Origin: Deltaproteobacteria bacterium
Lineage (GTDB): Bacteria > Myxococcota_A > UBA9160 > UBA4427
Reading direction: 5' to 3'
Length of the DNA stretch: 57,707 nucleotides
NCBI GenBank assembly: GCA_019310975.1
Contig: JAFDDH010000007.1
Coordinates: 1 to 57,707, forward strand
Under the pieces are notes generated by a model. It saw only the letters and a list, made by a program, of their open reading frames with translations, had not been told where the DNA came from and did no database searches. Position numbers and translations under genes: made by a program. Each line of letters begins with the position of its first letter. The first letter of the stretch is position 1. This document shows, piece by piece, positions 52,170-54,768 of the stretch.

Positions 52170-52187
52170 AATGCAGGATCCGTTCCA
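52170..52187 (-). promoter_or_regulatory. Sigma-54 promoter of glnB-glnA
   Basis: Minus-strand sequence TGGAACGGATCCTGCATT has GG and GC ten bases apart and fits the -24/-12 consensus with two substitutions. The same 18 bp recur in the porin promoter at 54642-54659. Predicted start is about 52160, 130 bases before the glnB ATG. Confidence 0.8.
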
Positions 52188-52280
52188 TTCGTACGCCGTG
52201 GGGTCACACGCAACGAGAGCCCGCTGAGGCGAGTTTCGACGGTCTTGACCGACGTGAGACCGCCCAAACGTGCGGAGTTG

Positions 52281-52297
52281 TGCACAGTCGCTGGGCA
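52281..52297. promoter_or_regulatory. NtrC-like enhancer dyad upstream of glnB
   Basis: TGCACAGTCGCTGGGCA fits the NtrC pattern TGCAC-N7-GTGCA with one mismatch (GGGCA). It begins 109 bp from the start coordinate of the sigma-54 core, nearly the same spacing as in front of the porin. Confidence 0.6.
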
Positions 52298-52444
52298 GCG
52301 GCTGCCCGTTTCGGCAGCAGTGGCGCCAGATCCGTGGGCCGACCACGGCGCCGTCGTCGAGGCCGGTGGCCGGCACGCAGACGAGACCCGCCGTGAGCCA
52401 CTTCCCAAGCGGGTGTGGGCGTACCCGCGCTCGACCGGCCGGTT

Positions 52445-52460
52445 GGGAATGCCTCTTGCA
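52445..52460 (+). promoter_or_regulatory. Possible sigma-54 promoter of the Fis-like gene
   Basis: GGGAATGCCTCTTGCA keeps the -24 GG, the -12 TTGCA and their spacing, but mismatches three other positions. It lies 170 bp before the Fis-like GTG and overlaps the 14-bp repeat. Confidence 0.3.
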
Positions 52461-52489
52461 GAATACCTCCTGCAGAATGCCTCTTGCAG
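52448..52489. repeat. 14-bp tandem repeat, three units
   Basis: Units AATGCCTCTTGCAG, AATACCTCCTGCAG, AATGCCTCTTGCAG. Outer copies are identical; the middle one differs at two positions. Each carries a (C/T)TGCAG that resembles a -12 element, so copies could tune promoter use. Confidence 0.85.
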
Positions 52490-52631
52490 TTTGATGCGAG
52501 GATGCGAGGAGATCGGGGAGTCGGGGGAGCTGGGTGGCCAGCACCGACCGACCGGCCCCGCGTGCTCGCGGGCCGAACGCAGTGGCCTCGACCGGAACGA
52601 GCCGAAACGAGCGGGAACGAGGTACTCAGCC

Positions 52632-52943
52632 GTGAGCATCCACTACGACGACACCCAGAGCAGTTTCGAGCCGGCCGGGGCCGCCGCGACGTCCGGGCCA
52701 TCCTCGGCCACCGCCGAGGAGTTCGCACGCTTCCTTCGCCAGGCCGAACGCCTGCCGGGCCACGGCGAGGCGGCGGGATCGCTGCGCGAGTGGCTCGACC
52801 TCGCCGAGGCCTGGCGGATCGCCCAGGCGTTGCGCGACTGCAAGGGCAACCGCTCGGCGGCCGCCCGCAAGCTCGGCATCGGGCGCCGCACCCTCTACGC
52901 CAAGATGGACAAGCTCCGCATCACACCCAGCTGGAGCTTCTGA
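52632..52943 (+). CDS. Stand-alone Fis-type HTH protein
   Basis: From the GTG at 52632 (GAGG about 10 bases upstream) the protein is 103 aa. The N-terminal half is low-complexity (DDTQSSFEPAGAAATSGPSSATAEEF). The C-terminal half is a Fis/HTH_8 domain of the kind ending NtrC proteins: LAEAWRIAQALRDCKGNRSAAARKLGIGRRTLYAKMDKLRI. It has neither a receiver nor an AAA+ domain. Divergent from glnB-glnA, it may be a small DNA-bending or competing regulator at the same sites; this is inference. Confidence 0.82.
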   Translation: MSIHYDDTQSSFEPAGAAATSGPSSATAEEFARFLRQAERLPGHGEAAGSLREWLDLAEAWRIAQALRDCKGNRSAAARKLGIGRRTLYAKMDKLRITPSWSF

Positions 52944-53002
52944 GCCACTCACTCGCTAGCCAGCAAGACCGGCGATCGGTCTTCGGGCCGGAAGGGGCCC
53001 TG

Positions 53003-53044
53003 ACGAAATGGGGCGCGACACCTTGGTGTCGCGCCCCATTTCGT
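53003..53044. terminator. 20-bp perfect-stem bidirectional terminator
   Basis: A 20-bp perfect inverted repeat (arms start ACGAAATGGGGCGCGACACC) with a TT loop lies between the convergent Fis-like gene and porin gene. The A/T-rich outer ends (AAAT/ATTT) supply short U-tracts in both directions. Confidence 0.85.
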
Positions 53045-53063
53045 TGCGTGCAGATCTCCTGGA

Positions 53064-54461
53064 TCAGAACTCGTACATCATCTGCAAGAGCATCACGTGC
53101 TGCGTGTCCTTCAAGATGGGTCCCGACTGCGGCAGGAAGATGCCCGATATGCCCATCCCCGTGCTAGAGAGGATGGCCGTCTGGGTCAGGAGATCGATGT
53201 TCGAGTAATCGAATCGATACTCCAGCTTGAGCGTGAGGCCGTCGATGGGGCTGTAGTCACCCGTTGCTGTAACCGACTGCAACGAGTTCTCGAGCGGCAA
53301 AAGCGGGATGTCCTCCTTGTAGCTCACGTACTCGTAGCGCAGCGCGATGCCCGCATTGTCGAGAACACTCAGACGCCCCGCACCCGCGATCGCCTGGTAG
53401 CTGGTCTTCAGCGTGCCGGGCGAGGTCGTGGTCGCCTTGTTGTTCTCCCAGCGGTAGTCGTAGTTGATCCACAGCGAGAGGTTCTCGACGGGATCGGCGG
53501 TCAGGACCAGGTCGAGGATGCCCATCGAGTCGTTGGCAACGCCGCCGGTGAACACCGGGAAGAAGATGCTGGTCGGGGCCGACTGGTCCTTGCCATATAC
53601 GAAGGTCGCACTGGCAAAGTACTTGTCCGCGCTGTAGGCGACCTGCGAGGTCAGTGCAGGCGCCTTGGTGTCGTCGATCCCGATCCCGCCGACGACGTCG
53701 TTCAGCGCGCCGATCGCCACCGAGAAGCCGCTGCCGATGTCGAGTTTCGCTACCGCGCCCACGTTGGTGATCGGCTGGAGGCCCCAGACGAGGCCGCGGG
53801 TGATGTTGAAGTTCGCATTCGTCTGCTCCACCTCAGCGCCGACGAGCGTCGGCAGAAGACCCCCGTCGATCTGCAGGCCCTGCATCAGCGGGATCAGGTA
53901 GCTCGCATAGGCGGAGTAGAAGCTCGGCGTGAAGCCGTCCGCGCCGGATCCGTAGCCGGCCCGCAGGTCCATGTGGAAGCCACCCCGGCTCTCCTCGGTG
54001 GGCGCCTTGTCGATCGAGATCCACGCCTGGTCGAGCTGGAAGGTGTTGCTGTCGGGATGGTGCGGATACCAGAGCGGGAACCCGGCACCCACACCGGGAA
54101 TGATCGAAGTATTCTGTCCGTTCTCTCCGCCGGGGGCCGAGTCCTCGACACTCGTGAAGTTGATCACGTAGCTGGCCGCGACCCAGCCCGAGAACTCGGT
54201 CTGCTCGAGAAAGCTCGAGAGTGCGGACTGCTCACCGCGCTCCTCGTCGAGGCCGGCGTCTTCGATCACCTGCTGCTGAGCTTCGACCGTGGCCTCGGCG
54301 TTGGCGATCTGGTCGTTCTGTGCCTGGAGCTGATCTTCCATCCGCTCCATGCGCTGCTTCATGTCCTGGATCTCGACGTCGAGATCGGTTGCTGCCGCGA
54401 GCTGCGGCACGAGCAAAATGCTCGCGGCCACGATGGCGACCGTCCTGCCAATGGATCTCAT
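53064..54461 (-). CDS. Outer-membrane beta-barrel porin (BBP2-like)
   Basis: From the ATG at 54461 the protein is 465 aa. A signal peptide (RTVAIVAASILLVPQLAAA) precedes a coiled-coil segment (IQDMKQRMERMEDQLQAQNDQIANAEATVEAQQQVIED), then a barrel of amphipathic strands (FSGWVAASYVINFTSVED; GGFHMDLRAGYGSG; LSLWINYDYRWENN; LTLKLEYRFDYSNIDLLT) ending with a C-terminal Phe (LLQMMYEF). It resembles the putative beta-barrel porin-2 family; the coiled coil recalls trimeric or peptidoglycan-contacting porins. Substrate unknown. Its promoter copies that of glnB-glnA, so it is probably induced in nitrogen limitation and may admit a nitrogen source. Confidence 0.85.
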   Translation of the reverse strand: MRSIGRTVAIVAASILLVPQLAAATDLDVEIQDMKQRMERMEDQLQAQNDQIANAEATVEAQQQVIEDAGLDEERGEQSALSSFLEQTEFSGWVAASYVINFTSVEDSAPGGENGQNTSIIPGVGAGFPLWYPHHPDSNTFQLDQAWISIDKAPTEESRGGFHMDLRAGYGSGADGFTPSFYSAYASYLIPLMQGLQIDGGLLPTLVGAEVEQTNANFNITRGLVWGLQPITNVGAVAKLDIGSGFSVAIGALNDVVGGIGIDDTKAPALTSQVAYSADKYFASATFVYGKDQSAPTSIFFPVFTGGVANDSMGILDLVLTADPVENLSLWINYDYRWENNKATTTSPGTLKTSYQAIAGAGRLSVLDNAGIALRYEYVSYKEDIPLLPLENSLQSVTATGDYSPIDGLTLKLEYRFDYSNIDLLTQTAILSSTGMGISGIFLPQSGPILKDTQHVMLLQMMYEF

Positions 54462-54641
54462 CTCGTTTCTCCCTGGGTGGTGGTTCCATGCCAACTCGTT
54501 CGGGTGGTGCCCAGTCCCGCTCGGGCCAGAGCCTCGCGGCCGGGCGCGGGACCCTCCGACCTGCCACCGGTGCAAGGTCGAAAGACTTGGACCGGGGGGT
54601 CGGTCTGCGATGTCGGGGAATGCATTCGATCGTGGGACTCG

Positions 54642-54659
54642 AATGCAGGATCCGTTCCA
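54642..54659 (-). promoter_or_regulatory. Sigma-54 promoter of the porin gene
   Basis: Minus-strand TGGAACGGATCCTGCATT is identical over 18 bp to the glnB promoter. The predicted start is about 54632, giving a leader of about 170 bases before the ATG. Confidence 0.8.
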
Positions 54660-54669
54660 GTGGAACGGA
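54651..54669. promoter_or_regulatory. 19-bp dyad overlapping the porin promoter
   Basis: TCCGTTCCAGTGGAACGGA is a perfect dyad (9-bp arms, one central base) covering the -24 element. A protein bound here would block sigma-54 RNA polymerase. Not present at the glnB promoter. Confidence 0.5.
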
Positions 54670-54751
54670 ATGGGCCGGTCGGTGTCCGGGCTACCTCAGG
54701 GAGCGCGCGGGCCCGCAGTTGGACGACCTTCCGCCCAGGGTCGCAGCCTCG

Positions 54752-54768
54752 TGCACAAGCGGTGTGCA
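54752..54768. promoter_or_regulatory. NtrC-like enhancer dyad upstream of the porin
   Basis: TGCACAAGCGGTGTGCA fits TGCAC-N7-GTGCA exactly and begins 108 bp from the start coordinate of the sigma-54 core. This is a standard enhancer distance. Confidence 0.7.

Follow-up and report, generated by a model that had tools for sequence, protein, structure and literature searches.

The window analysed here, a contig of 57,707 nt, belongs to an assembly of 5.35 Mb obtained from an uncultured Myxococcota-type ('Deltaproteobacteria') bacterium, with bacterium TMED88, UBA4427, SP3084 and UBA9160 among its named relatives. The locus comprises, in this order, glnA (-), glnB (-), a gene (+) encoding a 103-aa HTH_8 protein, which we call mini-Fis, and the gene of a BBP2 porin (-), together with the regulatory features listed in Table 1. 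This porin/HTH_8/PII/glnA neighbourhood is retained in relatives.

Table 1. Genes and predicted regulatory features of the glnA-porin locus (positions in the window)
Feature	Position	Strand	Basis or remark
glnA, type I glutamine synthetase, 472 aa	50233..51651	-	PF00120/PF03951; TIGR00653 658.5 bits (cut-off 429)
glnB, PII protein, 107 aa	51706..52029	-	PF00543
Predicted sigma-54 -24/-12 promoter of glnB-glnA	52170..52187	-	GG-N10-GC; TGGAACGGATCCTGCATT, exact
glnB/mini-Fis tandem enhancer (putative)	52281..52319		Dyads at 52281-52297 and 52303-52319, flanked by the glnB and mini-Fis promoters, which diverge
Sigma-54-like promoter of the mini-Fis gene	52444..52460	+	TGGGAATGCCTCTTGCA; weak score (10.7); distance and letters of relatives
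Mini-Fis gene, stand-alone HTH_8 (Fis-type) protein, 103 aa	52632..52943	+	PF02954, E 5e-14
Bidirectional terminator-like hairpin	53006..53041		AAATGGGGCGCGACACC-TT-GGTGTCGCGCCCCATTT; direct reading; lies where the mini-Fis and porin genes converge
Predicted outer-membrane porin, BBP2/OmpL-like, 465 aa	53064..54461	-	PF07642, E 3e-39; coiled coil at the N-terminus followed by a probable beta-barrel
Two perfect 9-bp inverted repeats	54621..54669		TCCGTTCCA/TGGAACGGA and TGCATTCGA/TCGAATGCA; flank the porin -24 and -12 elements
Predicted sigma-54 -24/-12 promoter of the porin gene	54642..54659	-	Identical 18-mer TGGAACGGATCCTGCATT, exact
Porin tandem enhancer (putative)	54752..54790		Paired NtrC-type dyads 54752-54768 and 54774-54790

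The PII protein of the window lacks five residues (EEVIR-type) immediately N-terminal of the IRTGERG loop and is the sole 107-aa PII among about 76 compared, most of which have 112 aa; this short form is either a true variant or an assembly error. Two further PII genes lie elsewhere in the same genome. Additionally, in genus g10 (L076, 7274-9190, and relatives) the PII gene is followed by a DUF3604 gene (PF12228) where glnA is not adjacent. The porin matches PF07642 with 135.8 bits (curated cut-off 26.2), and its predicted model (pLDDT 67, pTM 0.63) finds its best PDB matches among the trimeric porins OmpT, DcaP and PorB, while a PDB sequence search returned no sequence-level relative. No sigma-70 promoter was recognised by consensus in the glnB-porin region. 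The search for Rfam leader elements gave a single match, mir-642 (E 0.25), which lies at the terminator hairpin and was judged spurious.

Predicted promoters and tandem enhancers of the locus

The first-pass annotation had reported the same 18 bp upstream of glnB and of the porin gene, both on the minus strand, and the two elements are indeed identical letter for letter. There is no third TGGAACGGATCCTGCATT site in the window, even with up to three mismatches allowed (0.08 expected), nor anywhere in the assembly of 5.35 Mb when up to two are tolerated. Two sigma-54 elements collected in the order share on average 11-11.5 of their 18 bases. Measured against the full set of such sites, 18/18 identity has a chance of about 3e-5, and none of the 2058 other cross-class site pairs attains it; the identity beyond the sigma-54 core, which had also been pointed out, is therefore real. 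The inverted repeats around the porin promoter are possibly operators or hairpins.

Upstream of each of these promoters an NtrC-type dyad of the form TGCAC-N7-GTGCA had been proposed, and both dyads are present as claimed, that of the porin being exact and that of glnB carrying one mismatch (GGGCA for GTGCA), which is the customary half-site of the order (TGCCC/GGGCA). The near-equal spacing likewise holds, with 115 bp (glnB) and 114 bp (porin) between the centre of the near dyad and the GC of the -12 element. A lone dyad was nevertheless rejected as evidence, because 26 TGCAC-N7-GTGCA sites with at most two mismatches were counted in the window and 26.4 are expected by chance; the genome contains 10 exact dyads. 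What the earlier reading overlooked is that each near dyad is accompanied by a second one located 22 bp farther out, TGCTGCCGAAACGGGCA in the glnB unit and TGCTCGATCGGCGAGCA in the porin unit, so that both units possess paired dyads within 70-200 bp upstream. Across the 5.35 Mb, the tandem pattern TGC-N11-GCA/N3-7/TGC-N11-GCA has only three occurrences, two of which are the glnB and porin units, as compared with 6 per strand for the reversed-pattern control in the same genome; tandems spaced by 22 bp occur genome-wide only at these two units.

The two sigma-54 elements described initially stand, but a third candidate, the divergent promoter of the mini-Fis gene, had been missed. It is situated 163 bp from the start of the enhancer (161-164 bp in relatives), and its letters are nearly the same in two relatives, L198 and L201 (TGGGAACGCGTCTTGCA and TGGGAACGCCTCTTGCA). 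Three 15-nt direct repeats (GAATGCCTCTTGCAG) with a 14-bp period extend over 52447-52489 (+) and overlap the -12 part of this promoter.

Conservation of the units and origin of the porin unit

The comparison covered some 80 genomes from the order to which the bacterium belongs; these genomes are related to one another, and the counts given below are thus not independent. Across the order, tandem dyads and -24/-12 elements precede glnB, Amt and mini-Fis genes and about half of the porin genes. A strict tandem is present in 27 of the 80 genomes, as against one with the reversed control; these tandems sit at PII, mini-Fis and Amt genes and, in the genome of the window, also at the porin gene. The scores for -24/-12 elements come from a weight matrix built from the published sigma-54 consensus and calibrated empirically, against background only; on this scale, 20 of 47 distinct porin upstream regions score at least 12.5, compared with 3.5% of random 330-mers. 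A combined enhancer and promoter score of at least 28 is reached by 24/47 porin and 33/51 PII regions versus 7.8% of 245 control genes, the latter rate being an overestimate, because many control matches belong to PII, porin or mini-Fis genes with a wrongly assigned start. The excess at porins is significant even when the porin of the window is excluded (Mann-Whitney p 5e-11).

The first-pass annotation had also suggested searching related genomes for the same elements and had named missing conservation in close relatives among the findings that would speak against it. This outcome is seen in part: more distant porins carry the unit, while no -24/-12 element was found at the porins most similar to that of the window (L073, L074, L075 and L106) or at two of another genus (L101 and L107), the nearest porins being about 38-48% identical to that of the window. 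The idea of a family-wide porin unit is therefore rejected; the sigma-54 tie of the porin has been gained and lost. In L101 and L107, the region about -90 to -50 upstream of the porin, which is devoid of a sigma-54 element, contains a common inverted repeat, TCCCTGTAAATCACAGGG, which may be a site of another regulator.

The spacing between enhancer and promoter follows a regular pattern. The 50 distances measured in PII and porin units group at 82-88, 94-98, 106-109, 116-123 and 129-131 bp, with a period of approximately 11 bp and R 0.73, a value reached in none of 3000 null draws (p is still ~1e-3 after thinning of the set to 12 sites). Judging from these distances, enhancer and promoter appear to be placed on one face of the helix, and the roughly 50 natural spacings would constitute a series showing a helix-face rule for NtrC.

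Two explanations had been offered for the shared 18-mer, copying or strong shared selection, and our results favour the first. The porin promoter contains two non-canonical bases, A in TGGAAC and C in CCTGC, which are typical of the glnB promoters of its clade and occur in none of the 21 other porin promoters; the porin enhancer lies at a distance of 130 bp, within the 129-131 bp of the clade's own glnB units; and the nearest relatives lack a porin unit. Hence, we lean towards the view that the porin unit was copied from a glnB-type unit in this lineage and that the similarity of the spacers was subsequently lost. Homology of the spacers as a proof of copying was sought between the two units and is absent; apart from stretches of 26 and 29 bp the spacers bear no similarity, which counts against a recent copy, since a recent copy should retain its spacer.

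Independent convergence under shared selection, in which both promoters would have been tuned to one form within a single lineage, competes with copying and not with NtrC control, and it is quite conceivable. It would account for the dissimilar flanks and spacers, and it draws on the repeated emergence of sigma-54 units at porins of the order; moreover, the glnB promoter of the window and those of the clade relatives L048, L062 and L111 already share the variant TGGAACGnnTCCTGCA, which leaves few free positions once the variant is fixed. Against it stand the chance of about 3e-5 for an 18/18 match between two sites of the set, the A and the C that no other porin promoter displays, and the distance of the porin unit, which falls into the class of the clade's own glnB units. 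If copying is the correct explanation, the locus represents a candidate case of a complete bacterial enhancer-promoter unit copied to a neighbouring gene.

Putative nitrogen control and the mini-Fis protein

The genome encodes candidates for the machinery that such units would require. Genes for an NtrB-like kinase and an NtrC-like regulator are adjacent (G000:C179), and the NtrC-like protein, which scores 533.6 bits with TIGR01818, just below the curated cut-off of 558.6, is the top match among the enhancer-binding proteins of the genome, 85 bits above the next. RpoN is encoded as two contig-edge fragments (model positions 2-263 and 249-434), each of which, being partial, falls below the cut-off. 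In total, the NtrC-type proteins of full length number about a dozen. The window itself contains one full-length enhancer-binding protein of the NtrC family (32820-34157, +).

Taken together, NtrC/sigma-54 control of both the glnB-glnA and the porin units is probable, although it is from sequence that we infer NtrC binding, the response to nitrogen and the solutes of the pore. The tie between the porin and nitrogen, presented at first as deduced from sequence, is now well supported as a prediction: the same architecture precedes glnB-glnA, Amt genes and around half of the porin genes in the order, and owing to this order-wide recurrence it is a repeated pattern and not a single coincidence.

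In the model that we propose, the locus would comprise three sigma-54 promoters and two tandem NtrC enhancers. Upon nitrogen shortage, phosphorylated NtrC would assemble on the two dyads spaced by 22 bp, the intervening DNA of about 115-137 bp up to the promoter would loop out, and the NtrC ATPase would open the RpoN-polymerase poised on the -24/-12 element. The enhancer next to glnB would drive glnB-glnA and, in the opposite direction, the mini-Fis gene, while the second enhancer would be dedicated to the porin alone. Nitrogen limitation would thereby yield more PII, glutamine synthetase, small DNA-binding protein and outer-membrane pore, the latter presumably admitting small nitrogen solutes to the periplasm.

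It is unlikely that the porin unit, while being under genuine sigma-54 control, answers to another enhancer-binding protein and to a signal other than nitrogen. Candidates exist among the dozen NtrC-type proteins, one of them encoded in the window, and the porin dyads of relatives are more degenerate than the PII dyads; yet the near dyad of the porin matches the enterobacterial NtrC consensus exactly, the only other tandem with 22-bp spacing in the genome precedes glnB-glnA, and elsewhere in the order the same tandem precedes Amt and PII genes. A reading of the porin elements as a product of chance or as a relic without function, a promoter copied without effect on the porin, is very improbable, for despite the lack of the unit in the nearest relatives the dyads and the -24/-12 element are intact, their distance is in phase, and equivalent units occur at about half of the order's porins.

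The mini-Fis gene would belong to the same presumed NtrC circuit. It is conserved in 55 of the order's 80 genomes and absent from all 11 genomes of the class that lie outside the order. In 28 of the 30 loci inspected it is divergent from the PII gene, with an NtrC-type tandem lying between glnB and mini-Fis in relatives as well, and 28 of the 30 have a separate sigma-54 site for mini-Fis beyond the shared enhancer and in helical phase. In two genomes (G041 and G052) the gene is unlinked from PII and adjoins an Amt gene across another tandem enhancer. The profile search detected HTH_8 alone in the mini-Fis protein, with neither a receiver nor an AAA+ sigma-54 interaction domain; lacking the AAA+ domain, it is not classed as an enhancer-binding protein. 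We considered that it might be a duplicate or competitor of NtrC at the same dyads, which is disfavoured since its recognition helix is unlike that of NtrC. Tentatively, and with some doubt, we suggest that mini-Fis is a dedicated partner of NtrC that binds the loops or promoters and bends DNA or shuts the units off. If true, it would be a built-in feedback or architectural regulator of the nitrogen regulon, including the porin.

Comparison with known systems

In enterobacterial glnA (glnALG), NtrC sites lie upstream of a -24/-12 promoter and activation proceeds by DNA looping, as described in PMC7408454. The present locus resembles glnALG in that glutamine synthetase would be driven by NtrC sites and a -24/-12 promoter; unlike glnALG, its dyads are 22 bp apart, its consensus tends toward TGCCC/GGGCA, its operon is glnB-glnA, the enhancer would be shared with the divergent mini-Fis gene, and a second enhancer of this kind would serve the porin. 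Moreover, the spacing clusters of the order agree with two earlier results. At Klebsiella nifLA, activation by NtrC from two sites is helix-face dependent (Minchin 1989, cited in PMC7408454), and the looping lengths of Vibrio qrr sigma-54 enhancers cluster about 11 bp apart between ~80 and 120 bp, according to PMC4740811. The former is one bench-tested promoter, whereas the rule for the order is deduced from 50 natural spacings; the latter concerns small-RNA genes and a different regulator, whereas the units of the order have NtrC-type sites at PII, Amt, mini-Fis and porin genes.

The mini-Fis protein shares the DNA-binding domain PF02954 with Fis and with the C-terminal HTH_8 of NtrC-family activators. 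It differs from the NtrC-family domains in being stand-alone, with 103 aa and a conserved GNRSAAARxLGIGRRTLYxKMxKLGI, and its recognition helix is unlike that of its own genome's NtrC (GINRNTLRKK). The locus brings to light a conserved small DNA-binding protein whose gene appears to be linked to the same enhancer and whose role is testable.

A porin under nitrogen control is of a known kind, since NtrC-dependent porins are documented in Burkholderia cenocepacia: excerpts of PMC5491218 and PMC10117139 report altered porin transcripts in an ntrC mutant and, for BCAL3473, upregulation on nitrogen depletion and sigma-54-like elements upstream. Unlike those of the window porin, the -24/-12 elements of BCAL3473 have an extended spacer, and these excerpts describe neither linkage to glnB-glnA nor a duplicated enhancer unit. 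The literature that we searched, with partial coverage, contains no description of a linked porin/mini-Fis/glnB-glnA arrangement. What is new is this linked module together with the order-restricted mini-Fis protein; by it, NtrC/sigma-54 control in uncultured Myxococcota-type bacteria would be extended from ammonium assimilation to outer-membrane permeability within one linked locus.
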